This document shows positions 144 through 52,300 of a DNA stretch of 64,000 nt, piece by piece; the stretch's first letter is position 1; every line of letters starts with the position of its first letter. Under the pieces are notes generated by a model. That model ran no database searches, was not told the origin of the DNA, and was given only the letters and a program-made list of their open reading frames with translations. Source of the DNA: Myxococcus xanthus. Lineage in GTDB: Bacteria > Myxococcota > Myxococcia > Myxococcales > Myxococcaceae. A program made the translations under genes and the position numbers. The stretch is taken from assembly GCF_900106535.1 (NCBI RefSeq), contig NZ_FNOH01000008.1, positions 62,001-126,000 on the forward strand, in the 5' to 3' direction.

Positions 144-3100
144 CTACCACCCAGCGGGAGCAGCCAGGAAGCCACGCTGCACCAGCGAGGAGAGATACGT
201 CGAAATCAACGTGGCATCCACGGTCGGACACGACGTCCCTGTTCCTCCCAGCGCCTTCAGCGTGTGCCCGCTGTCGCAGACCACCATCCGCGGCCCACCC
301 ACGCTCCGGTCCTCGGGCGGCACCTGCTGGAGGAACAGGAGCAGGTCTCCCAGCTCACGGTCGGACGGCGCCGCGAGGCCGAGCTCCGCGAGCCACTCGT
401 CATAGGGGAGCACGCGCAGCCCGTAGCCAAAGGCTCGCATGTGGCTCCACATCTCGTCCGCTCGCACGAACTGCGGGTTGACCAGGTGGAAGGTCTGACC
501 AAGGGACTCGGGACGCAGGGACAGGTCCACGATGGCGCTGCTCACGTAGTCCACCGGCGTCACGTCCAGCAGCGCGTCCACGCTGGGCGCACTCCCCAGT
601 TGGACGCAGCCCTTGAGGGTCCTGCACACCAGGTCGTCCGTGTTCCACGCACCCGTCCTGCTGTGCCCCGTCACCCGCCCCGGCCGGTGAATCGTCACAG
701 GGAGTCCTCGCTGCGAGGCCTCACGCACGAGCTTCTCCGCCACCCACTTGCTCTGGGCATAACCGCCCACCAGGCTCGCAGCCGCTTCCAGCGGCTCATC
801 CTCGCGGAAGGGAAGCTGGCGCCCCACGGGCAGCACCGACACCGTGGAGACATAGTGCAGCGGCTTGATGCGCGTGCGCACGCACAGGCGAAGAATCTCC
901 CGCGTACCCAGCACGTTCGCCGCGCGCATCGACTCGTAGGGGTAGATGAAATTGACGAGCGCACCGTTGTGGTAGACGGCGTCCACCTCCTCCGACAGCC
1001 GCTGGAACTCCGCTTCCGACAGGCCCAGCAGGGGCTGGCCGATGTCCCCTCGGACAGGGACGATTCGCGACGCCAGGTCGTCGCGCCACAGCGAGTAGCT
1101 CTCCAGGTTCTTGCGAATCCGCTGCATCCCCTCCTGCTCCGACTTGGAGCGGACCAGGCAATGGATGCGCGCCTGCGTCTTCCGGCAGAGCTCCTCGAGC
1201 AGGAATGCGCCGAGGAAGCCCGTGGCGCCCGTCAGCAGCACGGCGCGCGCGGGCCCGGAGGTGGACGGAAGCGCCGTTCCCGGCAGCAGCCCTGCCTCCA
1301 GCACGGCGTCCGCCTCCAGCTCCGCCACCACGTCGTGGACCGGCAGCGAGCCCGTCTTCGCGGCCTCGATGGTGCGCGCCATCTCCTCCAGCGTCGGCGA
1401 CTGCAACAGGGCCCTCAGCGGGATGTCCGCGCCCGACGCGGCCCGCGCGAGGACGAGCACCCGGTAGAGCAGCAGCGAGTGGCCTCCGAGCTCGAAGAAG
1501 TGGTCGTGCACGCCCACCTGCTCCACCCCAAGCACCTGGCGCCAGATGTCCGCCAGCGTGGCTTCCCCAGGCGTTCTCGGCGCGACGTGGGCCTTCGCCG
1601 TCCCGGAGCCCACACGGTCCGGCGCGGGGAGCGCGGCGCGGTCCACCTTCCCGTTCGGCGTGAGCGGCAAGGCCTCCAGGCCCACGAACACGAAGGGCAC
1701 CATGTACTCGGGCAGCCGGGACTTGAGGTGGTCGCGCAGCGCACCCGGCTCGGGGGCCTTCCCGTCGCGGCCCACCACATACGCCACCAACTGCTTGTCA
1801 GCGCCCGGGCCTTCTCGCACGACGACGACCGCGTCGCGGATGCCTGGGTGCTCCTGCAGCGCCGCGCCAATCTCACCCAGCTCGATGCGGAAGCCGCGGA
1901 GCTTCACCTGGTGGTCCATCCGGCCCAGGTATTCGAGTTGCCCGTCCGGCAGCCACCTCGCCAGGTCTCCTGTCCGGTACAAGTGCGCGCCCGCGTCCCC
2001 GGCGAAGGGAGACGTGACGAACCGCTCCGCCGTCAGCTCCGTCCGGCCCAGGTAGCCCCGCGCGACACCATGCCCGCCGATGTAGACCTCGCCCGGCACC
2101 CCCACGGGCATGGGCTCCCGGTTCGCATCCAGCACGTAGACCTGGGTATTTCCAACGGGCCGGCCGATGGTCGGCGTCTCGCCCCGGTTCACACGGGTGA
2201 ACGTGGAATAGGTCGTCGTCTCGCTCGGGCCGTAGAGGTTGAAGACATCTCTCACGTGGCCCAGGGCGTAGATGGAGTCAACCAGCGCTCCCGCCAGCGC
2301 CTCGCCCGCCAGGTTGACGATGGTGACCGACGCCGGCACCCCGCCCCCTCGCAGCAGCGCGCCCATCGCCGAGGGCACGGTGTTGACGAGCGTCACCTCC
2401 TTCGCCGCGGGCAGTTCGGGCAGCTCCAGCGCATTCTTCGCGACGATGACCTTCGCCCCACAGCACAGGGGCGTGAAGATTTCGAAGACGGACAGGTCGA
2501 AGCAGATGGACGTCGACGCCAGCGTCCCCGCCAACGACTCCGGCGAGAAGACACTCTGGGCCCACTGCAAGAAGGCCACGGCGTTCCGGTGGTCAATCAT
2601 CACGCCCTTGGGCTTGCCGGTGGAGCCCGAGGTGTAGATGAGATACGCGAGCGAATCGGGCGTCGTGACACGCCCGGGGTTCACCTCCGGCTCGGCGCCG
2701 AGGGCGGCGGCATCCGCGTCCAGACACACCACGCGTGCCTCGGTGGCGGGAAGCCCCGGGAGCAGCCGTTGCTGCGTGAGCAGCACAGGCACCTGCGCGT
2801 CCTCGAGGATGAGCGCCAGCCGCTCCTTCGGGTAGGCGGGGTCCAGTGGCACGTAGGCGCCGCCGGCCTTGAGGATGGCCAACAGGCCGATGACGAGGTC
2901 CTCCGTCCGCTCGACGCAGAGCCCCACGCGCGCCTCGGGCCGCACGCCCAGCCGCCGCAGGTGATGGGCCAGTTGGTTCGCCCGGCGGTTGAGCTCGGCG
3001 TAGGTCAGCGTCCGCGTTCCGCTCACCACGGCCACGGCGTTCGGCGTCCGCTCCACCTGGGCCTGGATGAGCTCGTGCATGCACAGCGCCGGGACGCCGA

Positions 3101-4687
3101 GCACCGGGCCGTTCCAGGCCGTGAGCAGCCGCGTCCGCTCTTCCGTCGACAGCACGGGCAGCTTTGACAGGGGCGTCTCTGGTTTCGCGACGACGGCCTC
3201 CAACAACACCTGGAGGTGGCCCACCATCCGCTCCGCCGTCGTGGCGTCGAAGAGCTCGCGCGAGTATTCGAGCATGCCAGCCAGGCCCTGTTCGCCAGAG
3301 GCCAGGATGAGGGACAGCTCGAACTTGGCGACGCCTTCCACGCTGCCGTCAGGTGCACCGCCCAGGAATGACCAGCGCGTCCCGGGCAGGTCCAGCGTGG
3401 GCGCGGGGATGTTCTCCAGCGTGAAGCAGGCACGCACCAGCGGGTTGAGCCCGCCCTCACGCGATGCGCCGACCGCCTTCACCACTTCGCTGAAGGGCAG
3501 CGCCTGGTGGTCCTGGGCGTCGAGCACCGTCTTGCGCGCCCGGGCCAGCCACTGCGAAAAGGTCGGGTCTCCGGACACGTCACTCCGGAGCACGAGCGTG
3601 TTGGCGATGAAGCCGATGAGGTCCGGCGGCACGCTCCCCCGATTCGCGGTCACCGTCCCCACGCCGAAGTCGAGCTGTCCCGAGTAGCGGTGCAGGAGCG
3701 CGGCGAACGCGGCGTAGAGCACCATGAAGAGGCTGCACCCTTCACGCTGGCCGAGCTCGCGCAGCGCCTCGCTCAACCCGGGCGAGAAGGCCACGGGCAC
3801 GGTCGCACCCCGGTGGCTGGTGGCGCTGGAGACACCACGGTCCACGGGGAGCTGAAGTGGCGGCAGTCCCTGGAGCTTCTCCTTCCAGAAGGCCCGCTCC
3901 CGGCCGCCAGCGGCCCCCGCCAGCCAGGCCTGCTCACGCAGGGCCGACTCGGCGAACTGCATGGACACGGGTGGCAAGGCCGCGGCCTGTCCCCGTACGA
4001 AAGACGCGTAGAGCGCCGACAGCTCCCGGACGAAGACGCCGAGCGACCAGCCATCCGTGATGATGTGGTGCTTCGTCACGAAGAGCGCGGAGTCGTCGGC
4101 GTCCAGGGACACCAGCGTCACGCGGAACAGGGGGCCCTGGGCCAGGTCGAAAGGCTGCTGGGCCAGCGCCTCCGAGCGCCGTTGGACCTCCTCGTCGCGC
4201 TGCGCCTCCGTCAGCCCCCGCACCTCCACGACGCTCAGCGTCGCGCCCACGTCGGGCGGCGCGATGACCTGCCTTGGACTTCCGTCCACCTCCGGGAAGG
4301 CCGTCCGGAGGACCTCGTGCCGGCGGACCAGCTCGTCCAGGCTCCGGCGCAGCGCCACCGTGTCCAGCGCGCCGTGTACCCGCAGCCCCAGGTGGACGTT
4401 GTACTGCGCGGTGCCCGGTGACAGCCGGTCCAGGAACCAGAGCCGCTCCTGCCCGCTGGACAGCGGGATGACCTGGGGCCTCGTGACGGGCCGCTCAGGG
4501 CCGCTGCCCACCTCGTCGTGCGCGGTGTGCTTGCGCAGGAACGCGAGGATGTCAGCCTTGTTCGCCGCCAGCTCGGTCCGCAGCTCCGGCGTGAGGACGG
4601 CCTTGCCCGCCTCCACCACCAGCTTGTCACCGTCGACACGCAGGCGAACGCCCCTGGCCGCGAGGGTGCCCAACAGCTCCCGTACAC

Positions 4688-4691
<4 letters not shown>
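144..4691 (-). CDS. mxaA: MxaA: terminal NRPS module (docking-C-A-PCP-thioester reductase)
   Basis: Final module of the assembly line, 1515 residues. Residues 1-55 resemble a TubC-type docking domain. A condensation domain follows (HHIITDG near 209), then an alanine-type adenylation domain (YTSGSTGKPKG near 690), a PCP (GGHS, Ser near 1071) and a C-terminal NAD(P)H reductase. The reductase has GATGFLG near 1157 and the catalytic YAQSK near 1311. Aligning the A domain to GrsA by eye gives the specificity code D-L-F-N-N-A-L-T-Y, a known alanine code. The module would join the polyketide to alanine and release it reductively. In myxalamid this four-electron step yields the 2-amino-propanol amide. 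The ATG overlaps the mxaB stop (ATGA), with GAGGT 8 nt upstream. No thioesterase is present. The mxa assignment comes from the whole operon. Confidence 0.93.
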
Positions 4692-26673
<21,982 letters not shown>

Positions 26674-26685
26674 GTCGGAATCTCT

Positions 26686-29600
26686 TCAATCGGCCAGCGC
26701 GGCGAGCTTCTCCGCAAGCAGCGCCTCGGCTTCGTCGTCCGAGAGTTGCTTGACGTTGTTGACGATCGCGGCTTCGAGCGCGGCGGCTTCATCCCGCGGC
26801 GGCTCCGCCTGGGTCGTGATGGGAAGTTGCAGTTGTTCAGCCAGGTGCACGACGAGCGCCGCCACCGTCGGATGCCGCCAGACCAGCGTCGCGGGAAGCC
26901 TCAGGCCCAGGCTGGCTTCGAGCCGGTTGCGAATCTCCAGCCCCATCAGGGAATCCAACCCCATGCTGCCCAGGGGCTCCTGCGGGTCGATTCGTGAAGG
27001 CGCCAGCCGGAGCACATGGCCGGCCTGTTCGCACAGGTGCGCCTCCAGCAACGACGCGCGCTTCAGCACCTCCGCGGCCCGGAGCGTCTCCACGAAGGCA
27101 CCGCGAACAGCGGGGATATTCGCGGCGCTGGCCTGCTCACGCGCCAGCCGTGACAGGAAGGGCGAGCGCGCCGCCGTCAGGTAGAACTCGCTCCACTGCC
27201 GCAGGTCGAAACGCATCACCACCACGCGCGACAGAGGGCTGCCCAGGATGCGGCTCAACGCCTCCAGCGCTTGCGACGGTGGCATGGTGTCCACGCCGCG
27301 CTGGGTGATGCGTTCCCCGCGCGCCTCGGCCGCCGCGGCCAGACCCACACCGGCCCAGGCCCCCCAGTCAACGCTCAGCGCCGGCAGGCCGAGCCCACGC
27401 CGATACGCTGCCAACGCGTCGAGGAAGACGTTGGCCGCCGCGTAGTTGCCCTGCCCCGGCGAGCCCAGCAGCGAACCCGCCGCGGCGAACAACACGAAGT
27501 GCTCCAACGGCGCCGATGCCGTCAGCGTGTGCAGATGCCAGGCGCCGTGGACCTTGGGCGCCATCACCGTGCGCAGACGCTCGGCGGAGAGGTTCACCAG
27601 CACGCCGTCATCAAGGACGGCCGCCGCGTGGAAGACACCCCGGAGTGGAGGCATCTCCGCCGCCACCTCGCCCAGCACCCGCTCCAGGTCCGGGCGCGCC
27701 GCCACGTCCGCCTTGAACACCCGGACTTCGACGCCGCCGGCACGCAGCGCATCCAGCACCGGCTGCGCCTCCGCGGACGCGCCCTTGCGCCCCAGCAAGG
27801 CCAGGTGGCGGGCACCCCGGTCGACCAGCCACTCCGCGAGCTTCAGGCCCAGGCCACCCAGGCCACCGGTAATCAGGTACGTGGCATCGGCTCGCAACTC
27901 CGCCGGCGCCGCCGTGCTGCGCTCCATGCGCGACAGCCGCGCCACGAACCGCGCGGAGCCTCGGAGCGCGACCTGCTCTTCCGAACTCGAAACGAGGAGC
28001 TCGTCGGCCAGCACCCCAGCCTGGGCCTCATCGCGAGCCCCCAGGTCCACGCTGCAGCACCGGAGTTCGGGATGCTCCAACGCGAGCACGCGTCCCAAGC
28101 CCCAGAGTGGCGCCTGCTCGACATGGGCCACCTGCTCACCCGGCTTGACGGCCTGGACACCTTCCGTCACCAACCACACCCGAGGCATGTCCCGGAAGCC
28201 CGACGCGACCAGGGCCTGCGTGAGGTGGAGCGCGCTCGCCGCGCCAAGCGTGCGCGCCTTCACCAGCGCATCCGTGCCAGCCTCGAGACCGGGAACGTCC
28301 AGGCTGAAGAGGTGCACGACGCCACTGCATGCGGGACGCCCGGCGCCGAACTCCGCGTCGAGAATCCGCGTGAAACCCTCCGCTCGTGACGGGTCCACCA
28401 TGTAGTGGCCGGGCTCGACGAGCCGGGTCTCCTCGCCGTGGGAGACGAGGATGCAACGCTCCCCGCGCTCGCTCAGCACCGCGCGCAGCTTCCCGCTGAA
28501 ACCAGCACGGTCCGCGAGCACCAGCCAGGTGCCGGGCGTGGACTCCGAGACGGCCGTGGGCGTCTCGCGCGGCGCTTCCTGCCAGTCCACCCGGTACATC
28601 CACTGGTCGATTTCATCCGCGGACCGGCGCCGCACCGCATCCAGACGGCGCGCCATCAAGCCGCGGGCCTCCATCAGGACGTTGCCCTCCGCGTCCAGCA
28701 ACGTCACATCGGCTTCAATCGAGCCCGGGCCACTGCCCGTGCCCGGCCGGACACGAGCGTGACTCCACAGCGCACGTCCGGGCCGCCCGTGCATGCGCAG
28801 CGAGTCCACCGCCACCGGGACGAACGTCTCTCCCCGGCGGTCCCCCAGCCCCGCGCCGTTGATGGCTTGCAAGCAGGCATCCAGCAGCGCCGGATGGAGC
28901 TGATGCGCCGTCATCTCCGCCGCGACGGAAGGCGACAATTCCAGGCGCGCCACCGCCTCGCCCTCGCCCTTCCACATCTCCTTCACCAGGCGGAAGCTGG
29001 GACCGAAGTCGACGCCCCGCTCCAGCATGAGCTGGTAGTGCTTCTCGCCCTCCAGAAGCTCGGGGCACCGCGCCCGCGCCTCGTCGAGCGCGAAGGGCTC
29101 CGCGCTCGTGCTCTCACACATTCGCCCTTCAGCGTGCAGTGTCCAAGCCCCGGCGCCGTCCACCGGACGGCCAAAGACCTGGAAGCGACGGGTTCCATCC
29201 GCCTCCGGGATGACGCGCATCTGAACCGACAGCGCCTCTTCCCGAGGAAGCACCATCATCTCCTGGAAGATGACGTCCTCCAGCGCGAGCCGCGCCGGCC
29301 CGAAGGCCTCGGAGGCCCCCGCGAGCGCCATCTCCAAGTACCCGGTGCCGGGGAGCACGACCTCCCCATGGACGACGTGGTCCGCCAGATACGAAGGGCT
29401 GTCCGCGTACAGCTCCGTCTGCCACAGGTGCGCGCCGTCCTGGCCCGCCAGGGACAGGTGCGTACCCAGCAACGGGTGGTGGCCAGCGTCCCGGGCACGA
29501 CGGGTCCGCGTGGACGACTCAATCCAGAAGCGCTCGTGCTGCCACGGGTACGTGGGCAGCGCTGCGAGCCGGCCCCGCACGGGGTGCTGGCGCTCGAGGT

Positions 29601-32259
29601 CCACCTCGTGCCCCATGGCGTAGAGCGCGCCCAGGGACGACAACATCGCCCCGCGCTCGTCTTCGTCACGGCGGAGCGAGGGCAGCACCGTCCCCTCTCG
29701 CCCGAGGTGCCGCAGGTGTTGTTCCACCGCGGGCAAGAGGATGGGATGCGGGCTCAGCTCGATGAAGAGGTCATGGCCGTCGACCGCGAGCTTCTCGATG
29801 GCCTTCGAGAACAACACCGGCTCGCGCAGGTTATCCGCCCAGTAGCCGGCACGGAACTCCGCGCCATCCGTCATCCGTCCCGTCACCGTCGAGCAGATGG
29901 GCACACGGGACGCGCGCGGCGCGAGGTCCTGGAGCGCCGCGAGCAGGTCGGGCCGCAGCGGGTCCATTTGAGGGCTGTGCGAGGCCACGTCCACCTTCAC
30001 GAAGCGGCAGAAGACGTCCCGTTGCTTGAGCTGCTGGGCGATGTCCTCCAGGGCCCCAGGAGCGCCCGACAGCACCGTGGAGCGCACGCTGTTGCTCACC
30101 GCGACGGAGACCTGCGACTCCCAGCCGTGAAGGGCCTGCTTCGCCTCTTCCAACGTCAGGTCCACCAGCAGCATGGAGCCCTGCCCGCTCACGCCTCGAA
30201 GCAGCCGGCTGCGGCGGCAGATGATCTTCGCCGCGTCCTCCAGGCTCAGCGCTCCGGCCACGTGCGCCGCCGCCACCTCGCCCATGCTGTGCCCGACCAC
30301 GGCGTCGGGCTCGATGCCCCAGGCGCGCCACAGCTCCGCCAACGCCACTTCCATGGCGAAGAGAACGGGCTGGATGACGTCGATTTCATGGAGGCGGCCC
30401 TTGCCCTCTTCGGCGGCCAACTCAGCCAGAACGCTGAAGCCCGCGCACGCATGGATGGCCGCGTCGCAGCGCTCCATGGCCTCGCGGAACGCCGTCTCCT
30501 CCGCCAGCAGCTTCCGGCCCATGCCCAGCCACTGCGAACCCTGCCCCGGGAACACGAAGACGACCCGGCGCCGGGTCTGCCCCGATGCACGTCCCGTGGC
30601 CGCGCCCGGCACGGGCTCTCCACGCGCGTACGCCCCCAGCTTCTCCTCGAGTTCAGCGTGTGTATGGCCCGCGAGCGCGAGGCGGTGCTCATGGTGGGAG
30701 CGCGACAGGGACGCCGTGGCGCAGACGTCGCGGAGTGACACCTCGGGATGCGCGGCGAGCCAATGCGCGTGGCTCCCGGCCATGGCCTGGAGCGCCTCCG
30801 GACTGCGCGCCGACAGCACGAGCAACTCCGCGCCACGAGCAGGGACGGCAGGCCGCGGTGACGGCACCGGCGGCTCCTGCAAGATGACGTGGGCATTGGT
30901 GCCGCTGATGCCAAACGCGCTCACGCCAGCGAGGCGAGGCTGCTCGGCGCGGGGCCACGGCTGGAGCGCCGTGGGAACGACGACGGGCGCCCCGTCCAGG
31001 ACGATGTCCGGGTTGAGGCGGTGGAAGTGCAGGTTCGGAGGAATCGCCTCGTGGCGCAGTGATAGGGCCGTCTTCAGGATGCCCGTGAGCCCCGCCGTCG
31101 CTTCGAGGTGCCCGACATTCGTCTTCACCGAGCCGACGTACAGTGGCGTATCCGCGCTCCGTCCCGCGCCCAGCACCCGCGCCAGCGCTTGCAGCTCGAT
31201 GGGGTCGCCCAGCGACGTGCCCGTCCCGTGCGCCTCGACGAAGGAGACCTGCGAGGGCTTCAGCCCCGCGCTCGCCAGCGCCTGCTCGATGACCCGCTCC
31301 TGCGCCGGCCCGTTGGGCACCATGAGCCCACTGCTGGCGCCGTCCTGATTCACCGCCGAGCCCGCGACGAGCGACAGAATCTCATCGCCGTTGGCCAGCG
31401 CATCCGAGAGCCGCTTGAGCACCAGGACGACGCAGCCCTCCGCGCGCACGAAGCCATTGGCGGCGGCATCGAAGCTCTTGCACCGTCCGTCCGGCGCCAG
31501 CCCTCGGCTGCTGGAGAGGGCAACGGTCGGGTCCGGCATCAGCATGAGGTTGACGCCCGCGGAGAGCGCCAGGTCGCACTCGCGGTTGCGCAGGCTCTGG
31601 CAGGCGACGTGGAGCCCCACCAGCGACGACGAGCACGCCGTGTCGATGGACATGCACGGCCCCTGGAGGCCCAGCGTGTACGCCAGGCGGCCCGCCGCCG
31701 CGTTCAGCGAGGTTCCCGTCAGGTGATAGATGTCCGGCGCATCGCCGAGCTGCCGCGCCTGGAGCTGCGCGTAGTCGCTGCCGATGATGCCCAGGAAGAC
31801 ACCGGACTTGCTTCCTGCGAGCTGGTCCGGCGGCTGGCCCGCGCGCTCCAGCGCCTCCCACGCGACCTCCAGCAGCATCCGCTGCTGCGGGTCCATGCGC
31901 GAGGCTTCCCGGGGCGAGACGCCGAAGAATGCGGCGTCGAACTGGTCCACGCCGTCGATGAAGCCGCCCCAGCGAGCATAGGTGCGGCCCCGCTTGCTCG
32001 GGTCGGGGTCGAAGAGCGCCTCCGCGTCCCACCGCTCGCGCGGTACCTCGGTGATGGCGTCCAACCCCTGGCTCAGCAGGCGCCAGAAGGCCTCGGGTGT
32101 CCGCACGCCTCCGGGAACGCGGCAGGACGCACCGACGATGGCGATGGGCTCCGAGCGCGCGCGCTTGAGGGCTTCGCTCTCCGCGTGCAGGTCGAGCGCC
32201 AGCAGCGCGAGCCTCTTGGGAGAGAGGTTCGAAATCTTCTCGTAGAATTCCTTGCTCAT
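26686..32259 (-). CDS. mxaD: MxaD: PKS extension module 3 (KS-AT-DH-KR-ACP)
   Basis: Single PKS module, 1857 residues, with an N-terminal docking helix (EKISNLSPKRLALLALDL). The KS has DTACSSS with Cys near 207. The AT has GHSMGE near 657 and VASHS, a methylmalonyl signature. The DH has HVVHGEVVLP near 958, FGPSFR and HPALLD. The KR has GGLGGLG near 1467 and an LDD motif (B-type). The ACP has GLDSL near 1769. In the KR the segment before the catalytic Tyr reads LFAAAGSLLG, so the expected catalytic Ser, 13 residues before Tyr, is Ala. By collinearity the module would install the C10 methyl and the C10=C11 alkene, which needs ketoreduction. The gene begins 14 bp after mxaE. Confidence 0.92.
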   Translation of the reverse strand: MSKEFYEKISNLSPKRLALLALDLHAESEALKRARSEPIAIVGASCRVPGGVRTPEAFWRLLSQGLDAITEVPRERWDAEALFDPDPSKRGRTYARWGGFIDGVDQFDAAFFGVSPREASRMDPQQRMLLEVAWEALERAGQPPDQLAGSKSGVFLGIIGSDYAQLQARQLGDAPDIYHLTGTSLNAAAGRLAYTLGLQGPCMSIDTACSSSLVGLHVACQSLRNRECDLALSAGVNLMLMPDPTVALSSSRGLAPDGRCKSFDAAANGFVRAEGCVVLVLKRLSDALANGDEILSLVAGSAVNQDGASSGLMVPNGPAQERVIEQALASAGLKPSQVSFVEAHGTGTSLGDPIELQALARVLGAGRSADTPLYVGSVKTNVGHLEATAGLTGILKTALSLRHEAIPPNLHFHRLNPDIVLDGAPVVVPTALQPWPRAEQPRLAGVSAFGISGTNAHVILQEPPVPSPRPAVPARGAELLVLSARSPEALQAMAGSHAHWLAAHPEVSLRDVCATASLSRSHHEHRLALAGHTHAELEEKLGAYARGEPVPGAATGRASGQTRRRVVFVFPGQGSQWLGMGRKLLAEETAFREAMERCDAAIHACAGFSVLAELAAEEGKGRLHEIDVIQPVLFAMEVALAELWRAWGIEPDAVVGHSMGEVAAAHVAGALSLEDAAKIICRRSRLLRGVSGQGSMLLVDLTLEEAKQALHGWESQVSVAVSNSVRSTVLSGAPGALEDIAQQLKQRDVFCRFVKVDVASHSPQMDPLRPDLLAALQDLAPRASRVPICSTVTGRMTDGAEFRAGYWADNLREPVLFSKAIEKLAVDGHDLFIELSPHPILLPAVEQHLRHLGREGTVLPSLRRDEDERGAMLSSLGALYAMGHEVDLERQHPVRGRLAALPTYPWQHERFWIESSTRTRRARDAGHHPLLGTHLSLAGQDGAHLWQTELYADSPSYLADHVVHGEVVLPGTGYLEMALAGASEAFGPARLALEDVIFQEMMVLPREEALSVQMRVIPEADGTRRFQVFGRPVDGAGAWTLHAEGRMCESTSAEPFALDEARARCPELLEGEKHYQLMLERGVDFGPSFRLVKEMWKGEGEAVARLELSPSVAAEMTAHQLHPALLDACLQAINGAGLGDRRGETFVPVAVDSLRMHGRPGRALWSHARVRPGTGSGPGSIEADVTLLDAEGNVLMEARGLMARRLDAVRRRSADEIDQWMYRVDWQEAPRETPTAVSESTPGTWLVLADRAGFSGKLRAVLSERGERCILVSHGEETRLVEPGHYMVDPSRAEGFTRILDAEFGAGRPACSGVVHLFSLDVPGLEAGTDALVKARTLGAASALHLTQALVASGFRDMPRVWLVTEGVQAVKPGEQVAHVEQAPLWGLGRVLALEHPELRCCSVDLGARDEAQAGVLADELLVSSSEEQVALRGSARFVARLSRMERSTAAPAELRADATYLITGGLGGLGLKLAEWLVDRGARHLALLGRKGASAEAQPVLDALRAGGVEVRVFKADVAARPDLERVLGEVAAEMPPLRGVFHAAAVLDDGVLVNLSAERLRTVMAPKVHGAWHLHTLTASAPLEHFVLFAAAGSLLGSPGQGNYAAANVFLDALAAYRRGLGLPALSVDWGAWAGVGLAAAAEARGERITQRGVDTMPPSQALEALSRILGSPLSRVVVMRFDLRQWSEFYLTAARSPFLSRLAREQASAANIPAVRGAFVETLRAAEVLKRASLLEAHLCEQAGHVLRLAPSRIDPQEPLGSMGLDSLMGLEIRNRLEASLGLRLPATLVWRHPTVAALVVHLAEQLQLPITTQAEPPRDEAAALEAAIVNNVKQLSDDEAEALLAEKLAALAD

Positions 32260-32273
32260 CGCAGTCGTCCGAT

Positions 32274-35200
32274 TCAGCTCAACTTCAGGGCAATCAACCG
32301 CTCGACTTCGTCGTCCGACAGCTCCGAGACTTGCGCCAGCCGCTCCGACAGGTCGCCGACGTCCGCAGGCACCGGGGATGACTTCTGCACCGGAGCCGCC
32401 GCCACCGTGGGCAACGGGATGTCCACCGCGGTGACGCTCCCCGCCAGGCGCTTCGCCAGCGCCACGACGGTGGGGTGGTCGAACGCGAGGCTCGCGGGCA
32501 GCTCCTTCTCGAGTCCGCGCTGCAACACGTTGCGCAGCTCCACGGACATCTGGGACGTCATCCCCATCTGGAAGAAGCCGCGGTCCACGGGGGGCAAGTC
32601 GGCGGGAGCGAAGCCGAGAATGCGCCCCACCTCGCCCTGGATGCGTTGCACGAGCGTGTCGAACCGGCGCTCAGCAGGGAGCGCCTTCAACTCCGAGAGC
32701 AACCGTGCCCGCGAAGTGGCACCACCGTTCGTGGCCAGCGACGCCGCGCCCATGTTCAGCAGGAAGGGCCGGCGACGCCGAGCCTCCCAGATGGGCTTGA
32801 GTACGGACCAGTCCACGGAGGCGACCGTCTTATGGCTCGCGCCCGACCGCAGCACCTGTCCCATCGCATCGAGCGCGCGCTCCGAGGCCATGGGGTTCAG
32901 CCCGAAGCGGGCGTAGCCCCGCGCGTTGTCGGCGCGCTCTCCGCCAATCTCGTCCCACGTCCCCCAGTGAATGGTGGTCGCGGGCAGCCCTTCGGCCCGG
33001 CGGTGATGCGCCAGCGCTTCCAGGAACTGGTTGCCCGCCGCGTAATGCGCCAAGCCGGAAGCGCCCCACAACGTGGACGTCGACGAGAACATCACGAAGA
33101 AGTCGAGCGAGAGGCCGCGCGTCAGGTCGTGCAACACCCAGCTCCCGAGCACCTTCGGACGCATCATCGCCGTCGTGGCGGCGACATCCAGGTCCTCCAA
33201 CCGGCACTCCGTGATGAGCGCGGCGGCATGAATCACGCCGCGCAACGGAGGCAGCGTCGCCGCCATGTCGCGCAGGAGCGCCGCCATCCGCTCGCGGTCC
33301 GCTACGTCCACGGCCATGGGCGTGACAGTCGCCCCGATCACCCGGATCGACTCGAGCTCCTCGCGGCGCCGCACCGACGCCGCATCGTCCGCACCGGAGA
33401 CCCCACTGCGGCCCAGCAGCACCAGGTGCCGCGCGCCCCGCTCCACCAGCCACCGCGCCACCTTCAGCCCCAGCCCGCCCAGGCCGCCCGAGACCAGGTA
33501 CGTCGCATCCGAGCGCAGGCGCAGTGCCTCCTCGGCCGTCCCTGCCCTTCCCCGTGTAAGCCGGGGGACCAGCGAGCGCCCATCGCGGAAGGCGAACTGG
33601 TCCTCTCCATCCGTTCCGAACGCGGAGACTTCCCGCAGCACCGAGGTGACTTCATCCGGCGACCGAGTCGGCGGCAGGTCGATGAGGCCGCCCCAAACGC
33701 CCGGCTGTTCCAGCGAGACGCTCCGGCCCATGCCCCAAAGGGGTGACTGGGCCAGCGACACACGTTCGGTTCCCACGCCCGTGACCTGCGCGCCCCGCGT
33801 CACCACCCAAAGCCGCGCATGCCCTGACACCTCCATGAGGGCCTTCACCAGGTGCAGCGCCGCCACCGTGGACGCGGGCACTGCCGTCTGCCCATCCAAC
33901 GTTTCGTCGAGGCCCCACAGGAAGAGCGCCCGGCCTTCGTGCCCAGCCGCGAGCGCTGGAAGCTCTCGCAGCAAGCGCGCCATGTCCTCCGGCCGCTGTG
34001 GGTCCACCACGAAGCTCCGCGTTCCCAGGCGCTGGAAGGCGTCCCCCGCGGTCACCATGACAAAAGGGGTGTTCTGACGCCGCAGCTCCTCGGCGAATGC
34101 CGCGCCCCAACCACCCCGGTCCGCGAACACAAGCCAATCCGCGGGGGCCGACTGGGGTGTCCCCGCCGGCCGCGGCTCCCACGACACGTCGTGGAACCAG
34201 TCCTGCGCGCGGACTTCCCCCAACACCTCGAGCAGCCGCTCCACCGCCACGTGCCGCAACCGGACACCGCGCGCCACCGCGACCGGGCGACCCTCCGCGT
34301 CCAGCAGGGACAATGTGCCCAGCCGCTCCTCAGGACGAGACGCGGGCGAAATGGAGACGTGAGCCCACCGAACGTCCGCGCTGCCAGGGACGCACTCGAA
34401 TGATTCGAGCCCCAGGGGCATGAAGAGCGCCGCCTGCCCCGGTTCGGCCGCCAGCGCGAGCGCCAGCGTCTGGAGCGCGGCGTCCAGCAACGCGGGATGC
34501 AACTGATACTGGGACGCCTCCTGAAGTCGCTCCGCGCCCAGCACCACCCGGCCCAGCGCCTCCCCCGGCCGCCGCCACGCCTCGTCCAGTGTCCGCAGCG
34601 GCTCGTCGTACTGGACGTTGCAGCGCTCCAGCTCGCCGTAGACCGCCGCGCCCGGGACGTGCTCCACACAGCGCGCACGGACCGCGTCGATGGACGCCAA
34701 CGCGCCCATCGCGGCACTGAGCACCTGGACATGGCCCCGGCAATGCCGCACCCACCCCGCCTCGGACGAGGCCCCGCCCACCGCGCGGCTGTGGATGTGG
34801 AACTCGTGCTTGCCTCCTGCCTCGGAAGAGAGGTGGACCTGCACGAGCCGCCGCGGGGTCTCCGGCAGCACCAGCGCCCGCTCGAACTCGACGCCGGACA
34901 GCCCCCGTCCCCCAGGGCCCAACGCATCGGCGGCGGCGCTCAGCCCGAGCTCCACCAACGCCGAGGCAGGAACGACCGCGACGCCACCCAACCGGTGAGC
35001 ACCAAGCCACGGCAGCGAGTTGCTCCCCAGCTCCAGCTCGAAGACCTGGCCATCGACGCCGTGAGCCACGCTCACCGGCCGGCCCTTGAGGGACGTCACC
35101 GGCTCGACCATCGCGGCCACGGGCGTGGCCACCGCGTCCAACCAGTACCGCTTGTGCTGCCAGGGATAGGTGGGCAGCGGGAGCGGCGTCCCACCCCCCG

Positions 35201-37858
35201 GGAAGAAGCGCTTCCACTGCACGGGGAGTCCCGCGCGGTACAGCGCGCCCACGGACTCCAGCAGCACGGTCCGCTCAGCCTCCTCGCGGCGCAGGGACGG
35301 AAGCGTCACGCCCTCGCGGCCCGCGTGCTGCAGGCATCGCTCCACAGCGGGCAGCAGAATCGGGTGCGGGCTCATCTCCAGGAAAACGGAGTGCCCAGCC
35401 TCGGCGAGTTGCAGCACCGACGAGGAGAAGAGCACCGGGTCGCGCAGATTGCGGACCCAGTAGGCGGCATCGAAGCCGGAGCCGTCACAGGAGGCGCCGG
35501 TCACCGTGGAGTGAATGGGCACGCTGGAGCGTCCGGGCCGCACCGCCGAGAGCACCGAGAGCAGCTCGTCCCGCAGCGGGTCCACCTGCGGACTGTGCGA
35601 GGCGACGTCGACCTTCACCCAGCGGCAGAAGACGTTGCGCGACTCCAGGTCGGCGCGAATCGATTCGAGCGCGGCATTCTCTCCCGACAGCACCGTGGAG
35701 GTCGGACTGTTGCTGACCGCGATGGCCACGCGGTCCTCGCGGCCCGCCAGCGTCTTGCGCGCGTCCTCCAGGGTCAGCTCCGTCGCGAGCATGGCCCCCT
35801 GGCCGCTGATGCGCCGCAGGAGCTGGCTGCGCAGGCAGATGATGCGCGCCGCGTCCTCCAGGGAGAGCGCGCCCGCGACGTGCGCCGCGGCCACCTCGCC
35901 CATGCTGTGCCCCACCACCGCGTCCGGCTCGACGCCCCAGGAGCGCCAGAGTGCGGACAGCGCCACCGCCATGGCGAACAACACCGGCTGCACGACGTCG
36001 ATGTCCTGGAGCCGGGAGTCCTCGGCAGGGGCGCGCAGCACGTCAATCAGACGCCACGTGACGTGGGGCCGCATGGCCTCGTCGATGCGCTCCACGGCCT
36101 CACGGAAGACAGGCTCCTGTTCGAGGAGCTGCCGCCCCATGCCGGCCCACTGCGAGCCCTGCCCCGGGAACACGAAGACCGCCTTGCGCCGGGTATCCGT
36201 GTCCGTCGCCGCCGGAGCAGGCCCCTCCAAGGCGAACTCCCGAAGCTGCCGCGCCACAGCGTCCGCCGAGTCCCCCGCGACCGCCGTCCGGTACTCGTGA
36301 TGGGTCCGCCGCAGCGCCGCGGTGAAGCAGACATCCCGGAGCGACATCTCCGGGGACGACGTGAGGACGTCCGCGTACTTCCGGGCCAATGCTTGAAGCG
36401 CGGAGGGTGAGCGCGCGGACAGCGGCAGCAGGTACGCCCCGCGAGAAGGCGCAGCGGGCGCCGCCGCGGCCACGGGGGCCTCTTCGAGAATCACATGGGC
36501 ATTCGTGCCGCTGATGCCAAACGAGCTGACCGCCCCCCGGCGCTTGCGCGTCTCCCGCGCGGGCCAGGGGTGCAGCTTCGTAGGGACAGTGAGGGCCTCA
36601 CCGCCGAAGTCGATGCGCGGGTTGAGCCGCTGGAAGTGCGCGAGCGGCGGGACGGCCCCGTGCTGCATCGACAGGACCATCTTGATGATGCCAGCGATGC
36701 CGGCGGCCGACTCCAGGTGGCCGATGTTCGTCTTCGCCGCGCCCACCACCAGCGACTGCTCCGCGGTGCGCCCCTGGGCGTACACCTCGTGGAGCGCCTC
36801 CAGCTCGATGGGGTCGCCCAGCGACGTCCCGGTGCCATGGGCCTCAACGCAGTCGATGTCGGCGGGCTCCAGGTTCGCGCTCTGGAGCGCCTGGCGGATG
36901 AGCGCCTTCTGCGCGAGCACGTTGGGCGCCGTCAATCCCGCCGACTTGCCATCCTGGTTGACGGCAGACCCCCGGATGAGCGCTAGGACGGTGTCCCCCG
37001 CCGCCAGCGCATCCGACAGCCGCTTGAGGACGACCACGCCGCAGCCCTCGCCCCGCACGAAGCCGTTGGCGCGGGCATCGAAGGTCTTGCAGCGTCCATC
37101 CGGCGCGAGCGCCTGCGCACGGGACACGCGGCTCGACGACAGCGGCGACAGGATGAGGTTGACGCCGCACGCCAGCGCCATGGTGCACTCTTGCTGCCGG
37201 AGGCTCTGCGCGGCCAGATGCAGCGCCACCAGGGATGACGAACACGCGGTGTCCACGGACAGGCTGGGTCCCTGGAAGTCCAGGAGGTACGACAGCCGCC
37301 CCGGCACCACGCAGTTGATGGCGCCCGTCACACTGCTGGAGTCGCGCGCCGCCGGATTTCCCACCTGCAACAGCGCGTAGTCATCGCTGTACACGCCCAC
37401 GAACACGCCCGTGCGGCTCCCTGCCAGCCGAGACATGTCCTGGCCCGCGTTCTCCAGCGCCTCCCACGCCACTTCCAGGAGGATGCGCTGCTGCGGGTCC
37501 ATCCGGTGCGCTTCGTGCGGAGAGATGCCGAAGAAATCCGCGTCGAACTGGTCCACCGCGTTGATGAAGGCACCCCACTTCGCGCCCAGCTTCTCCTGGG
37601 CCTCGGGGTCCATCCGCGCCATGTCCTCACGGGTCCACCGCGAGGATGGCACCTCGGTGACGGCATCCACGCCGTTGCACAGGAGGTTCCAGTACGACGC
37701 CGGGTCGTTCCCTCCGCCCGGGAAGCGGCAGCCCATGCCGATGATGGCCACGGGCTCCGACCGGCTGCCCTCCACCGCGTCGAGCCGCGACTTGAGGTCC
37801 ATCGCCAGCAGCGCGAGCCGCTTGGGGGAGTACTGCGCAATCTTCTCCGCGAACGTCG

Positions 37859-37862
<4 letters not shown>
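32274..37862 (-). CDS. mxaE: MxaE: PKS extension module 2 (KS-AT-DH°-KR-ACP)
   Basis: Single PKS module, 1862 residues, N-terminal docking helix (EKIAQYSPKRLALLAMDL). The KS has DTACSSS with Cys near 205. The AT has GHSMGE near 652 and VASHS, methylmalonyl type. The DH-like region keeps HRLGGVAVVP near 955 and HPALLD, but the usual YGPxF motif reads YDEPL, so it is probably inactive. The KR has SGGLGGLG near 1461, no LDD and a Trp eight residues before Tyr, so it is A-type; Ser and Tyr are present. The ACP motif is GMTSQM, with the phosphopantetheine Ser (near 1768) kept but Thr instead of Asp before it. Reduction without dehydration would leave the C13 hydroxyl and C12 methyl of myxalamid. 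The ATG overlaps the mxaF stop (ATGA). Confidence 0.92.
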
Positions 37863-44926
<7,064 letters not shown>

Positions 44927-45538
44927 TCGGACCTCTAACTGGCACGCTCGAAAGCCGGGCTTTTCCTCGGCAAACGAGATGACGACGGACGCAGTCCGCC
45001 TCCCCCTCGATAGACCCGATACAAGGAAGAACGGATCAATGCCAAATCCAAAACGTTGGCGCAAGCCCGTCAGCACGAAGCCGTTTCGTGCACTTTCACG
45101 AGAACCGGACACTCCAAACGGAGCACCCCATGTCTCTCAATCACCAAGACTTCGACTGATGCATGCCTGACTTGAAAATCAACAAACCCCGAAGCAAACA
45201 CATGGATGACCTCAGTAGAACTAATTGCGAACAAAACACTCCCCAGACATGACTCACCCGCCAGTCAGAGTGCGCGCCGCCTCCATTCCGGGGAAATCGT
45301 AGAACCCATATACATAAAGCCTATCAGTCGCCCAGCGTCCCCCAGGGCCGATGCCCAGGGGATTCCACCAGCAAACGCAATGGCCTGGATGTGTCCTGCA
45401 CACGCCAGCCGGCTCCACCTGATGGGCAGCCCGAGCTCCACGCCGCGAAGCAATCACCGGACGTATGAATTCTTATGATAAATCAATACAGTACCGCGCT
45501 GCGGGCGACTGGCCCCGGACCACGAGGAGGCAACCCGA
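44927..45538. promoter_or_regulatory. Divergent intergenic region between mxaF and the dioxygenase gene
   Basis: About 610 bp separate the two divergent starts, and AT content is clearly higher than in the flanking genes. It should hold the promoter of the ~44.8-kb mxa operon (minus strand) and that of the dioxygenase (plus strand). A TATGAT at 45474-45479 could be a -10 element for the plus-strand gene, but no matching -35 is evident. I found no convincing sigma-54 site or long dyad and no convincing small gene. The RBS GAGGAGG ends 8 nt before the ATG at 45539. Confidence 0.45.
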
Positions 45539-46344: not shown

Positions 46345-49300
46345 CTACTTCCTGGCGCGCTGACGCTGACGCTTGAGGCTCTCCAACTGCCGCTTGGCCC
46401 GGTCCTGCGCGGCTTCCACCTGGGACTGCGCCGCCGCGGGCCCCTGCCGCGCGAAACGCGCCAGGGTGCTGATGGTGGGGTGCTCCAGCAGCTTCAGCAG
46501 GGGCAGGTCCTGGCCCAGCACCGACTTGAGCTGGGTGTGCACCTGCACCATCAGGAGCGAGTGGCCGCCCAGGTCGAAGAAGTTGTCGTGCACGCCCACC
46601 TGCTCCACACGGAGGACGCTGCGCCACACCTGGGCAATCTGCTCCTCCAGTTGCCCCTGCGGCGCCACGAAGGCCGCTTTCGCGGAGCGCACCACGTTCG
46701 GCGTGGGCAGGGCCCTGCGGTCCACCTTGCCATTGGGCGTCAACGGGAGCGCCGGTAGCTCCATGACGAGCGACGGAACCATGTGCTCCGGCAACCGCTG
46801 AGCCAGGGCGTCGCGCAGCGCGGACGCCTCCACCGTGGCGCCCTGCGCGGGCACCACGTAGGCCACGAGCCGCACGTCGCCGGGCACATCCTCGCGCGCC
46901 ACCACCACCGCCTCGCGCACCGAGGGCTGGGCGGTGAGCGCCGCCTCGATTTCCCCCGCCTCGATGCGGAAGCCACGCACCTTGAGCTGGTGGTCCACAC
47001 GGCCGAGGAACTCCATGGTGCCGTCGGGCCGCCACCGTGCGCGGTCCCCCGTGCGATACAGCCGGGCCCCGGGCTCACGGGCCCAGGCATCCGGAATGAA
47101 GCGCTCCGCCGTCAGCTCGGGCCGGCCCAAATAGCCACGCACCACGCCCGCGCCGCCGATGTACAGCTCACCCGCCACGCCCACCGGCGCCGGCCGCATC
47201 CGTGCGTCGAGGACGTACAAGCACGTGCGCAGCAGTGGCGTGCCAATGGAGACGACGGCCGCCGTCTCCTCCGGGGTCACGCGCGCCGTGGAGGACCAGA
47301 TGGTCGTCTCCGTGGGGCCGTACATGTTGAGCAGCTCGGCGGACTCCGGCAGCGCCTTGCGCAGGGACGCGGCCAACGCGCCCGGAAGGGCCTCGCCGCC
47401 CACCATCAGCCGTTGCAGGCCGCCCAGCGCCTCGACGGACTCGGGCTCGGACAGCAGCGCGCGCGCCAGGGACGGCGTGCACTGCAGGTGCGTCACGCCG
47501 TGCTCGCGGAGCTGCTCGGGAATCGTCTTCGCCGTGCCCGCGCGGCGGCTGTCCCGCACGCAGCGCTGCCGCACTTCGTCCAGCAGCGGCAGGCTGGCCA
47601 GCACCGTGTCTGCGGGAATACCGAAGTCGATGAGGCACCCCACCTCGTCCACGCCCAGAGAGTAGAGCTGCCCGACGCGCTCGCGCACCGAACGCGGCGT
47701 GCCGAACAGGCCGCTCGTCTCGAAGTAGCGGTCGAAGGCATGGCCGGCGAGCCGGTCCAGGTCCGCCTCCGTGGCCGAATCCATGTCGATGCCCAGCGTG
47801 CTCCCCAGGCCGCGCATCAGGTCGGCCGAGCTCTTGAGGTAGTTGCGGAAGGGCTGCTCCACCACCTCGCGCACCTTCGCCATGTCCTCGCCGATGAAGG
47901 TGTGCAGCATGAGGGTGACGTGGCCCTCGCCCGCGTGGCCCGCGTCGCGCCAGGCCTGACGGTAAAGTGACAGCTTCTTCTCCAGGTCCTCCCACGTCTG
48001 CCCCAGCAGGTGCGTGAGGATGTTGCACCCCAGCCGGCCCGCGGTGATGAACGTCTCCGGGTTTCCCGCGGCGGTGAGCCACACGGGCAGCTCCGCCTGC
48101 ACGGGACGGGGGCGCAGCTTCACATCCACCTGCGCGCCGCCGCCGCCCGGGAAGCGCACCGTCTCCCCACGCCACAGCCGGCGCACGGTGTCGATGCCTT
48201 CCATCATCAGCTCACGGCGCTGCTCGTACTTCTCCGGCGCGAAGACGAAGTCATTGGCATGCCAGCCGGAAGCGACGGAGATGCCCACGCGCCCGCCGGA
48301 CAGGTTGTCCACCAGGGACCACTCCTCCGCCACGCGCACGGGATGGTGGAGTGGCAGCACCACGCTGCCCGCGCGGATGGCCACGCGCTTCGTCACGGTG
48401 GCGACAGCCGCGCCCACCACGGAGGGATTGGGGTACAGGCCGCCGAAGGCGTGGAAGTGGCGCTCCGGCGTCCACACCGCCGCGAAGCCGTGAGTGTCCG
48501 CGAACTTCGCGCCCTCCAGCAACAGCCGGTAGCTGCTCTCCCCGCGCGACACCTCCGCGTCATCCGCGAAGTAGAACAGGCTGAAGTCCATGGGGCGCTT
48601 CCGGGCCCCCGCGGCGCGAGCGGGCGCCTTGAGCGAAGCCCCCTCCCCTTGCACCACCACCTTGAAGCCGCGGGTGAGCGTCCACAGCAACTCCAGGACG
48701 GAGATGTCGAAGGAGATGCTGGTGACGGCCAACCAGGCGCCCGCGGGCGAGTGGCCCACGCGCACGTCCATGGCGGCGAAGAAGTTGGCCACGCCCCCAT
48801 GCGGTACCACCACGCCCTTGGGCCGTCCCGTGGAGCCCGACGTGTAGATGACATACGCCGCGTTGTCCGGCGTGGTCCCCAGGGCCAGCGGTGACGCCGG
48901 CATCGCCGCGTAGGGCTCCGCCGTATCCAGCAGCACGGTGTGCAGGCCGGCCACGGGCAGCGTCCCCGCCAGATGGGACTGCGTGACGAGCACGCGCGCG
49001 CCCGAGTCCTCCAGCATGTACGTGAGCCGCTCCCGGGGATAGTCCGGGTCCAGGGGCACGTAGGCGCCGCCCGCCTCGAGGATGCCGAGCATCCCCGCCA
49101 CCATCTCCACCGAGCGCTCGGCGCACAGGCCCACGCGCACCTCGGGGCCCACGCCCAGGCCCCTCAGATGCAAGGCCAGCGCGGACGCACGGCGCGCCAG
49201 CTCCGCGTAGGTGAGCGTCCCGTCCTCGGCGACCACCGCCACCGCGTCGGGCGTGCGGGCGGCCTGCTCACGGAACTGCGCGTGGATGCAGTGCGAAGCG

Positions 49301-52300
49301 TCCTGGGAGAGCGGCGCCGTGAAGTCGTTCCAGCGCTCCAGCAGAGAACGACGCTCCGCCTCGTCGAGCAGCGGCAGGTCCTCCACACGCGCGTCCGGAG
49401 CAGCGACGATGCCCCTCAGCAACGCCTCCAGGTGTCCCGCGAGCCGCGCCATCGTCTCCGCCGAGAAGAGGTCCGAGCGGTACTCCAGCGCGCCCTCCAG
49501 CCCTCGCGGCGTCTCCACGACGGCGAGCTGCAGGTCGAACTTCGCCGTGCCCTCCACCGCGCCGTCCGGCACGGGCAGCACCGGGCGCCACTGCATGCCC
49601 GGCACGTCCATGTCCACCGGCGGCAGGCTCTCCAACACCAGGTTCGCCTGGAACAGCGGGTTGTCGCCGCCACGGACCGCGCGCGACGCGCCCACCACTT
49701 CCTCGAAGGGCAGGTCCGCGTGCGCCAGGGCCTCGTGGAACGTGTGGCGCATGCGGCCCAGCAGCTCCCGGAAGCGGGGCGCGCCGGACACGTCCGCGCG
49801 GAGCACCAGCGTGCTGGCGAAGAACCCCACCACGTCACGCAGCTCGGCCCGGTCCCGCTGCGCGAAGATGGTGCCCAGGCCGAAGTCGTCCTGACCGCTA
49901 TAGCGGTGCAGCAGCGCCGCCCAGGCCGCCGCCAGCGTAACGAAGAAGGTACAGCCCTCACTCCGGCCCACCGCCTTGAGCGAATCCACCAGCTCGGCCG
50001 GCAGCGCGAAACGGTGGAGCGCGCCGCGGAAGCCCGGCTCCCGGGGACGCGGGAAGTCCGTGGGCAACTCCAGGCGCGGCAGGTTCTCCAGCTTCCGCGC
50101 CCAGTAGGCACGCTGCCCGTCCAGCGCGCCGCCCAGCCCGCGCTGCCAACGTGCGTAGTCCACGTACTGCAAGGCGGGCGCGCCCAGCGACGCGGCGGCG
50201 CCAGCCACCTCCGCGCGGTACAGCGCGGCCAGCTCCCGGGCCAGGACGCCAATGGACCAGCCATCGGTGACGATGTGGTGCTGGGTCATCAGGAGCACGT
50301 GCTCCTGGTCCTCCAGCGCCACCAGCGCCGCACGCACCAGCAGGCCCTCTGAGAGATTGAAGGGCGCCTCGCCCTGGGCGCGGGCCAACTGATTCAGCCG
50401 CGCGTCACGCTCGGCGGGCGACAGCGCCCGCAGGTCCTCGCGGGCCACGTCCAGCGGACGCAGGGGCGGCAGGAGCTGGCGCGGCTGACCCTCCACTTCG
50501 GGGAAGGCCGCGCGCAGCACCGCGTGACGCGACAGGAGCCCTTGCAGCGCGCGCTCCAGCGCGGGCACGTCCAGCGCGCCGGAGAGCCGGAGCTGGAAGT
50601 GGACGTTGTACAGCGCGCTCTCCGGCACCAGCCGGTCCAGGAACCACAGGCGCTGCTGACCGGGAGACAGCGGCAGCTCTCCCTCCAGCGAGCCGGCCTT
50701 CAGCGGCGGCGCGGCGGGCGCGGCGGAGCCCTTCCACGCGTCCACCAGATGCGCGGCGGCGGTCCCCAGCGTCGGGTGCTGCCAGAGGAAGGCCACGGGC
50801 AGCGACACACCGAGTTCCTCTTCCAGCCGGCCGTGGAGCTCCAGCGCCATCAGCGAGTCGAGCCCCAGGCTGGCCAGCGACGTCTCCGGCGCCAGGGACG
50901 CGGGCGCAGCGCGCAGCACCCGCGCGGCCTCCACGCGGAGGAAGTCCACCAGCAGCGCCGGACGGGCCTCCTCGGACGCCAGGGCCAGGCGCTCGCGCAG
51001 GGGCGCGGACGGCGTGGAAGGCACGGCCTCCGGCACCGGAGCGGCCTCCTCGCCCGACACCTCCACCACCTCCAGCGAGCCCGCCAGGAAGCCATCACGA
51101 CAGGCGCGGCGCTGAATCTTCCCGCTCGATGTCTTCGGAATGCTCCGGGCCTGGAGCAGCACCACCGTGTGCGCATGCACCTGGTGCTCATCGGCGAGCG
51201 CGCGGCGCAGGGCGCCCACCACCGCCGCGCCGTCGAAGCCTTCGCGCACGTCGACCTCGGAGACCACCACCAGCCGCTCCTCCCCCTCCACGTCCACGGA
51301 GAAGGCGGCGCTGCAGCCGGGACGCACCGCGCGGTGCGCGCGCTCCGCGGTCATTTCCAGGTCCTGCGGATACAGGTTCCGACCCCGGACGATGAGCAGA
51401 TCCTTGAGACGGCCGGTGATGAAGAGCTCGCCCTCCGGCGACAGGAAAGCCAGGTCACCGGTGCGGAGGAAGGGCCCCTCGCCGTTGGCGAGCCGCGCGC
51501 CGAAGGCATGCGCCGTCTCCTCCGGACGATCCCAATACCCACCCGCCACGCTGGGGCCAGCGACCCAGACCTCACCCACCTCGTTCGAGGCCCGAGGCAC
51601 CCGCGTCTCCGGGTCCACGATGAGCAGCCGCTGGTCCGGCGCGCCCTGACCGGAGGACACCAGCGTGCGCGCCGTGGGCCCCTCCGCCGCGTCGGACGCG
51701 GGCTTCGCGCGCCCCAGCTCCAGCGAGCCGGTGTCGTAGCGCTCCTGCACACAAGGCGTTCCCTTCACGCCGCCGCTGACGATGAGCGTCGCCTCTGCCA
51801 GGCCGTAGCAGGGATAGAAGGCCTCGCGCCGGAAGCCAGCGGGCGCGAACGTCTCCGCGAAGCGCTCCATCGTCTCGCGCCGCACGGGCTCCGCGCCGTT
51901 GAAGGCCAGGTCCCAGTGGCTCAAATCCAGACGGGCCACGTCTTCGGCGCGGGCCTTTCGCGCGCACAGGTCGTACGCGAAGTTGGGTCCACCACTGACC
52001 GTCCCCTTGAAATGGGAGACGGCCTCCAGCCAACGCAAGGGCCGCTGAAGGAACGCGATGGGCGACATCAGCACGCACGGGAAGCCCAGGTAGAGCGGCT
52101 GCAACACCTTACCGATGAGCCCCATGTCATGGAACATGGGCAACCAGCCCACGCCCACCGAACGCTCCGCCTGCAACCCGAAGTCACGCGTAATCAACGA
52201 CTCGTTGTGGAGGATGTTGGCGTGGCTGACCTTGACCCCCTTCGGGTTGCCCGTGGAACCCGACGTGTATTGCAAGAAGGCCAGCGACTCGGACGTCAGG

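Follow-up and report, generated by a model that had tools for sequence, protein, structure and literature searches.

Whether a ketoreductase (KR) of a modular polyketide synthase (PKS) can work without Ser 13 residues before the active-site Tyr, a residue usually counted as catalytic in KRs, is a question raised by the mxaD gene of Myxococcus xanthus. In the MxaD KR this place is taken by Ala, in a module from which an alkene, and hence a reduction step, is expected. The window analysed here is the whole stretch of 64,000 nucleotides from contig NZ_FNOH01000008.1 (positions 62,001 to 126,000), and all coordinates refer to it. A first-pass annotation of this DNA had noted the substitution and listed four outcomes: that the enzyme tolerates the change, that another residue such as Ser at -10 substitutes, that another KR acts in trans, or that the product carries a ketone.

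Cluster identity and layout

By Pfam, MxaD is module 3 in the gene order of a PKS cluster on the minus strand (Table 1). The available sections of PMC5559782 list seven guide sites that lie within the myxalamid cluster of M. xanthus DK1622 or close to it, and exact matches to three of the seven (17-6, 17-7 and 17-8) were located in the window at 22974, 41734 and 58835. A whole-genome search placed an exact match to site 17-5 on the same contig, 7.4 kb outside the window; sites 17-4, 17-9 and 17-10 were searched for within the window only and had no match there. The same sections of PMC5559782 report that deletion of the cluster in DK1622 abolishes myxalamid A ([M+H]+ 416.31). Taken with this deletion result, the exact guide-site matches, on which the identity rests, identify the cluster in the window as the myxalamid cluster, matching that of DK1622 and belonging to M. 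xanthus or a strain very close to it. Adjoining the mxa genes is a 2191-residue non-ribosomal peptide synthetase (NRPS) whose AMP-binding parts are separated by a stretch resembling luciferase-like monooxygenases (46348-52920, minus strand).

Domain content and product do not correspond at every step of the cluster. Module 5, in MxaC (16684-21333, minus strand), contains KS, AT, KR and ACP domains but no DH by Pfam, and its KR carries a Trp signature (FSSGSAVWGSAQMGHY); despite this, the corresponding position of myxalamid presumably bears a Z double bond. An ADH_zinc_N (enoylreductase-like) stretch is present in MxaB, the last module, despite which we assume that myxalamid keeps its C2=C3 double bond. 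MxaE has a DH domain by Pfam, despite which the 13-hydroxyl is presumably kept at this step.

The signature VASH, which we take to be of the methylmalonyl type, was found in four ATs (the extender AT of MxaF and those of MxaE, MxaD and MxaB), and AFH in those of MxaC modules 5 and 6; in the same signature scan the AT of MxaC module 4 matched neither the VASH-type nor the AFH pattern. The methyl groups of myxalamid are assumed to be at C14, C12, C10 and C2. The AT signatures fit this methyl pattern, and the MxaD step is therefore assigned to setting the 10-methyl group and reducing C11. For comparison, YASH and HAFH are named as methylmalonyl and malonyl signatures in the available sections of PMC5331325.

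Table 1. Coordinates of the PKS genes in the window and of the domains and active-site residues of MxaD
Feature	Position	Strand	Evidence or remark
mxaD-type PKS gene, 1857 aa, single module KS-AT-DH-KR-ACP	26686..32259	-	ORF, Pfam
KR domain of MxaD (PF08659, residues 1459-1636)	27352..27885	-	Pfam
Dehydratase (DH) domain of MxaD module; HVVHGEVVLP and HPALLDACLQ intact	28630..29478	-	Pfam, motifs
Acyltransferase (AT) domain of MxaD; VASH signature	29647..30561	-	Pfam, signature scan
Acyl carrier (ACP) domain of MxaD	26845..27036	-	Pfam
MxaF: module 1 fused to a loading part; AT and ACP each present as two stretches; KR Ser-type	37859..45112	-	
MxaE: module 2, KR Ser-type with Trp signature	32274..37862	-	
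MxaC: modules 4-6, three KRs, all Ser-type	11125..26673	-	
MxaB: module 7, KR Ser-type	4688..11128	-	
MxaA: terminal NRPS, C-A-PCP and reductase-type domain	144..4691	-	Domain search
Motif FAAAGSLLGSPGQGNY, Phe(-15) through active-site Tyr1606	27442..27489	-	
Phe at -15	27487..27489	-	
Ala1592 (GCC) at -14	27484..27486	-	Ser in phenalamide-type clade (5/18)
Ala1593 (GCG) at -13, place of the catalytic Ser	27481..27483	-	Ala in 18/18 orthologs
Ser1596 at -10	27472..27474	-	Ala in 7/18 orthologs
Tyr1606, active site	27442..27444	-	In 18/18 orthologs
Asn1610, active site	27430..27432	-	In 18/18 orthologs
Lys1569, active site	27553..27555	-	In 18/18 orthologs

Active-site residues of the MxaD ketoreductase

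The segment LFAAAGSLLGSPGQGNYAAAN was found in the minus-strand open reading frame of mxaD (26686-32259); the first-pass annotation had placed it correctly, at 27440-27510, and had left the strand unstated. Its reading of Ala at both -13 and -14 in MxaD, against Ser in the other KRs of the cluster, was confirmed, the remaining six KRs of the window all having Ser-Ser at -14/-13. Misalignment was ruled out, as alignment with the sister KRs needs no gap between Phe(-15) and Tyr.

The domain scored 227.5 bits against PF08659 (cut-off 22.6) and belongs to the PKS KR family. Three residues of the canonical Lys-Ser-Tyr-Asn set, K1569, Y1606 and N1610, are present, and the fourth, Ser(-13), is replaced by Ala1593. 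B-type KRs are recognized by an LDD signature and the lack of a Trp before the Tyr, and the MxaD KR has both features (HAAAVLDD, no Trp). It does not have the features of an inactive KR (KR0): the nucleotide motif GGLGGLG and the Tyr are kept in 18 of 18 orthologs, and an unreduced beta-keto product is contradicted, indirectly, by the reported and computed masses of myxalamid A given below.

Orthologs and history of the substitution

The MxaD KR was searched against 145 genomes of the order, and orthologs at 68-100% identity were found in 18 genomes including its own; among these relatives are Archangium lansinium and Myxococcus llanfairpwllgwyngyllgogerychwyrndrobwllllantysiliogogogochensis. 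The window and the 17 other clusters contain 131 KRs in total. All 18 MxaD KRs have Ala(-13), and the 113 remaining KRs in these clusters all have Ser, a pattern far beyond chance. A tree was built from 130 KRs (of the 131, the Ser-type MxaF KR of G109 was left out of the tree and of the group table), and in it the MxaD KRs formed one clade with support of 100/100. In a residue table of 214 KR stretches, 209 of them with all columns, 27 had a residue other than Ser at -13, made up of 22 MxaD rows (some genomes being entered twice) and five of 187 others.

Comparison of the codons in homologous mxaD genes, as proposed in the first-pass annotation, confirmed that the Ala is real: the 18 assemblies are independent and agree, and the Ala codons vary synonymously between genomes. 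A sequencing error was ruled out by this agreement. Since Ala(-13) is present in 18 of 18 orthologs and these form a single clade, the distribution is best explained by a single loss of Ser at -13 that would predate the split between the myxalamid and phenalamide lineages and was apparently never regained in the genomes seen. The residues at -14/-13 are Ala-Ala in 13 of the 18 MxaD KRs and Ser-Ala in the other five, and in the simplest history a second change, at -14, would then have occurred in the myxalamid branch.

The five Ser-Ala sequences come from orthologous clusters that contain eight KRs, not seven (G109, G113, G114, G111 and G102; L157, L160, L163, L166 and L169), the extra KR being Ser-type. 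One of these genomes, G111, is taken as M. stipitatus DSM 14675 and carries the FSAAG form; on the strength of this match the five eight-KR clusters look like phenalamide clusters. No report of the natural Ser-to-Ala change in MxaD was found in the literature searched, which did not include the 2001 myxalamid cluster paper.

Product chemistry

The [M+H]+ values computed for the alkene, the C11 ketone and the C11 alcohol were 416.316, 432.311 and 434.326, respectively, and the value reported for myxalamid A in the available sections of PMC5559782 is 416.31. Phenalamide A2 of M. stipitatus is described with a delta-10 olefin in the available sections of PMC13148359. The mass and this olefin are consistent with the earlier expectation that the MxaD module yields an alkene.

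The same sections of PMC13148359 describe prophenalamide D (C20H28O2), a 2-methyl-2E,6E-dienal with 4-, 6- and 8-methyl groups, a 10-phenyl group and an oxygen-bearing C5, which the authors postulate as a precursor. By comparison with the order of modules, and as far as the structure is described there, prophenalamide D would be precisely the chain present at the MxaD stage, with the double bond already formed, and prophenalamide E the chain one module past this stage. Both compounds were obtained from strain GXUA 01510, which lies outside the genome set compared here, and prophenalamide D could be a breakdown product instead of an intermediate.

Conservation and selection

The Asp motif of the MxaD dehydratase is kept in 18 of 18 orthologs and its exact HxxxGxxxxP motif in 17. 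In the exception, G096 (L138), the DH reads HVVHEQVVLP, in which the Gly of the motif is replaced.

Among the 13 myxalamid-type genomes, median dN/dS was 0.160 for the MxaD KR and 0.133-0.213 for the six Ser-bearing KRs. Among the five phenalamide-type genomes the MxaD KR had the highest median of the seven (0.195; others 0.105-0.189), as it did between the two clades (0.292; others 0.172-0.273), and these higher values are a mild sign of somewhat faster change of the MxaD KR. The constraint could come partly from folding and not from catalysis. A KR that no longer had work to do should lose its NADPH motif and Tyr, as in the inactive KR of chaxamycin module 3, which is described as lacking both the active-site Tyr and the NADPH motifs (PMC4551226, available sections). 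The MxaD KR keeps both and is very probably alive.

Reduction without the catalytic Ser, and alternatives

Very probably, the MxaD KR functions as a B-type ketoreductase that uses NADPH and lacks the usual Ser of the Lys-Ser-Tyr-Asn set. This reading is favoured alike by sequence conservation, by purifying selection, by the mass of the product, by the chemistry of the phenalamides and by the behaviour of a mouse fatty acid synthase (FAS) mutant discussed below, all of which lend their support to the first of the four outcomes listed earlier, tolerance of Ser-to-Ala. In the proposed mechanism, Tyr1606, helped by Lys1569 and Asn1610 via the NADPH ribose, would donate a proton to the C11 keto oxygen, and hydride would be delivered to C11 from NADPH. 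The aligning hydrogen bond of Ser would be absent, or would be supplied by water or the backbone, and reduction would perhaps be slower, yet fast enough for the assembly line. The module's own dehydratase would then make the C10=C11 double bond of myxalamid and phenalamide.

A further step, that Ala(-13) is itself kept by selection, is a doubtful proposition. Together with Ala1547 and Gly1595 it might reshape the site for a bulky branched substrate, or might tune a rate that couples reduction to dehydration, and such KRs might form a distinct Ser-free subtype of PKS KR that recurs in other lineages.

It is improbable that the MxaD KR is dead and that the beta-keto group on the MxaD carrier is reduced in trans, by the KR of a neighbouring module or by a free-standing KR. 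The missing Ser is of the kind usually counted as catalytic, and the cluster departs from colinearity elsewhere, with MxaC module 5 lacking a Pfam DH and MxaB having an ADH_zinc_N stretch. This proposal is set against the retention of the NADPH motif and of the catalytic Lys, Tyr and Asn by every one of the 18 orthologs, the dN/dS in the 13 myxalamid-type genomes, which is like that of the sister KRs, and prophenalamide D, which, if it is a true shunt product of the structure described, has its alkene already at the MxaD stage. Because the other catalytic residues of the MxaD KR are kept under normal purifying selection, reduction by another KR is unlikely.

Replacement of the Ser by another hydroxyl in the same active site (Ser at -10, -14, -6 or another residue) is equally hard to credit. 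Ser(-10), suggested in the first-pass annotation, did not hold up as a substitute, as seven of the 18 orthologs have Ala there, and Ser(-14) was ruled out by Ala in 13 of 18. Ser(-6) favours such a replacement in being present in 18 of 18 MxaD orthologs, but it is also common where the catalytic Ser is present at -13, for example in all 18 MxaC-1 motifs. In a scan against sister B-type KRs, four residues stood out as constant or almost constant in MxaD but infrequent in the sisters: Ala1547 (just before LDD), Ala1593, Gly1595 (-11) and Gly1622, none of which provides a hydroxyl gained in exchange. Charged residues at 1473, 1476 and 1526 showed the same pattern and are not part of the catalytic motifs. 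A solved KR that bears the Ser (alignment to 7s6b) likewise has Gly at -11 and Ala in the position equivalent to 1547, so these residues are no proof of compensation.

That the module makes a ketone, or that the Ala arose through faulty sequencing or assembly, is extremely improbable, since either idea derives only from the view of a single sequence in the first-pass annotation and is contradicted by the 18 independent assemblies with synonymous differences at the Ala codons, by the mass reported for myxalamid A and by the structures of the phenalamides as described in the sources available.

Occurrence of Ala(-13) in other ketoreductases

In 174 Myxococcota genomes, a motif for the Ala form gave 18 matches, of which 17 were MxaD orthologs and one, in G086, was not KR-like; the eighteenth ortholog genome (G044) lies outside this sample. 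The Ser-class motif, a pattern that admits also Thr, Cys, Arg and Trp codons, gave 190 matches in 48 of the genomes. A second set of 38 genomes, mostly actinomycetes and cyanobacteria, was reached through loci resembling the MxaD KR and is therefore KR-rich and not random; in this set the Ala pattern gave 20 matches and the Ser-class pattern 434, or about 4% Ala. Two of the 20 (L199 and L200) did not read as KRs and were dropped, leaving 18.

By Pfam, a DH is present in the module of 15 of these 18 Ala-type loci (four also having a zinc-dehydrogenase-type enoylreductase) and in none of two others, and one module is cut by a contig end. For comparison, 40 Ser-type regions were chosen manually, spaced about evenly along the rows listed for four of the 38 genomes. 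After one locus on each side was dropped for want of a usable module (L223, Ala; L230, Ser), a DH was found in 15 of 17 Ala-type and 33 of 39 Ser-type modules (Fisher p = 1.0). The DH profile used was built from ten of the compared Ala modules and MxaD, and Pfam gives the same 15. Neither a placement of Ala-type KRs where reduction is unneeded nor their enrichment in DH-bearing modules was seen. As DH domains occur in Ala-type modules as they do in Ser-type modules, Ala-type KRs are not confined to modules that dispense with reduction. The possibility that many KRs of proven activity have Ala here, raised at the outset as a point against the anomaly, thus holds in part: Ala is recurrent in these KR-rich genomes and mostly in DH-bearing modules, but it is uncommon, and we know of no KR among these Ala(-13) cases with proven activity.

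Implications and comparison with known systems

MxaD is by far best read at present, from the sequences compared, as a natural loss of the Ser that is real, ancient and fixed, with function retained, and as a variant on the known KR theme. KR activity is often predicted from catalytic residues, and since in MxaD the Ser is lost and the product is nevertheless reduced, MxaD warns against calling a KR dead on the Ser alone. The natural assembly line of a known product here appears to have lost one catalytic residue while its chemistry persists, which makes MxaD a ready natural test of the contribution of the Ser, and one that agrees with the recent mouse FAS result.

The 18 Ala-type loci of actinomycetes and other bacteria (L209-L226) are like MxaD in having Ala(-13) together with Tyr and Asn and, in 15 of the 17 for which the upstream sequence is long enough, a DH-bearing module. 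They are not MxaD orthologs and mostly have FSAxAG-like motifs with Ser at -14. The KR of chaxamycin module 3, a KR0, also departs from the full catalytic set, but as described it lacks the Tyr and the NADPH motifs, whereas the MxaD KR has both and its product is reduced (PMC4551226, available sections). DEBS KR1 (PDB 2fr0), a canonical B-type KR, is among the solved-structure matches of the MxaD KR (E = 3.8e-40) and shares with it the Pfam KR family, GGLGGLG, Lys, Tyr, Asn and LDD. Canonical B-type KRs such as DEBS KR1 have the catalytic Ser where the MxaD KR has Ala. Work on DEBS KR6 from 2003 reportedly speaks for a stronger effect of Ser-to-Ala.

A further comparison is with mouse FAS, as described in the available sections of PMC12856111. 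There, S2014A and Y2027F were built as KR knockouts after the design used in DEBS KR6, the same Ser-to-Ala change being cited as an earlier KR knockout in that domain (Reid 2003). Each single mutant unexpectedly kept reductive elongation, S2014A less efficiently than the wild type, and only the double mutant was inactive; the Ser was judged less critical, with substrate alignment proposed as its main role (PMC12856111). As in MxaD, the Ala of S2014A is exactly 13 residues before the catalytic Tyr (Y2027), the Tyr is present, and the enzyme still reduces. The two differ in that the mouse FAS variant was engineered and is impaired, whereas the Ala of MxaD arose naturally, is fixed in 18 genomes and seems to suffice.
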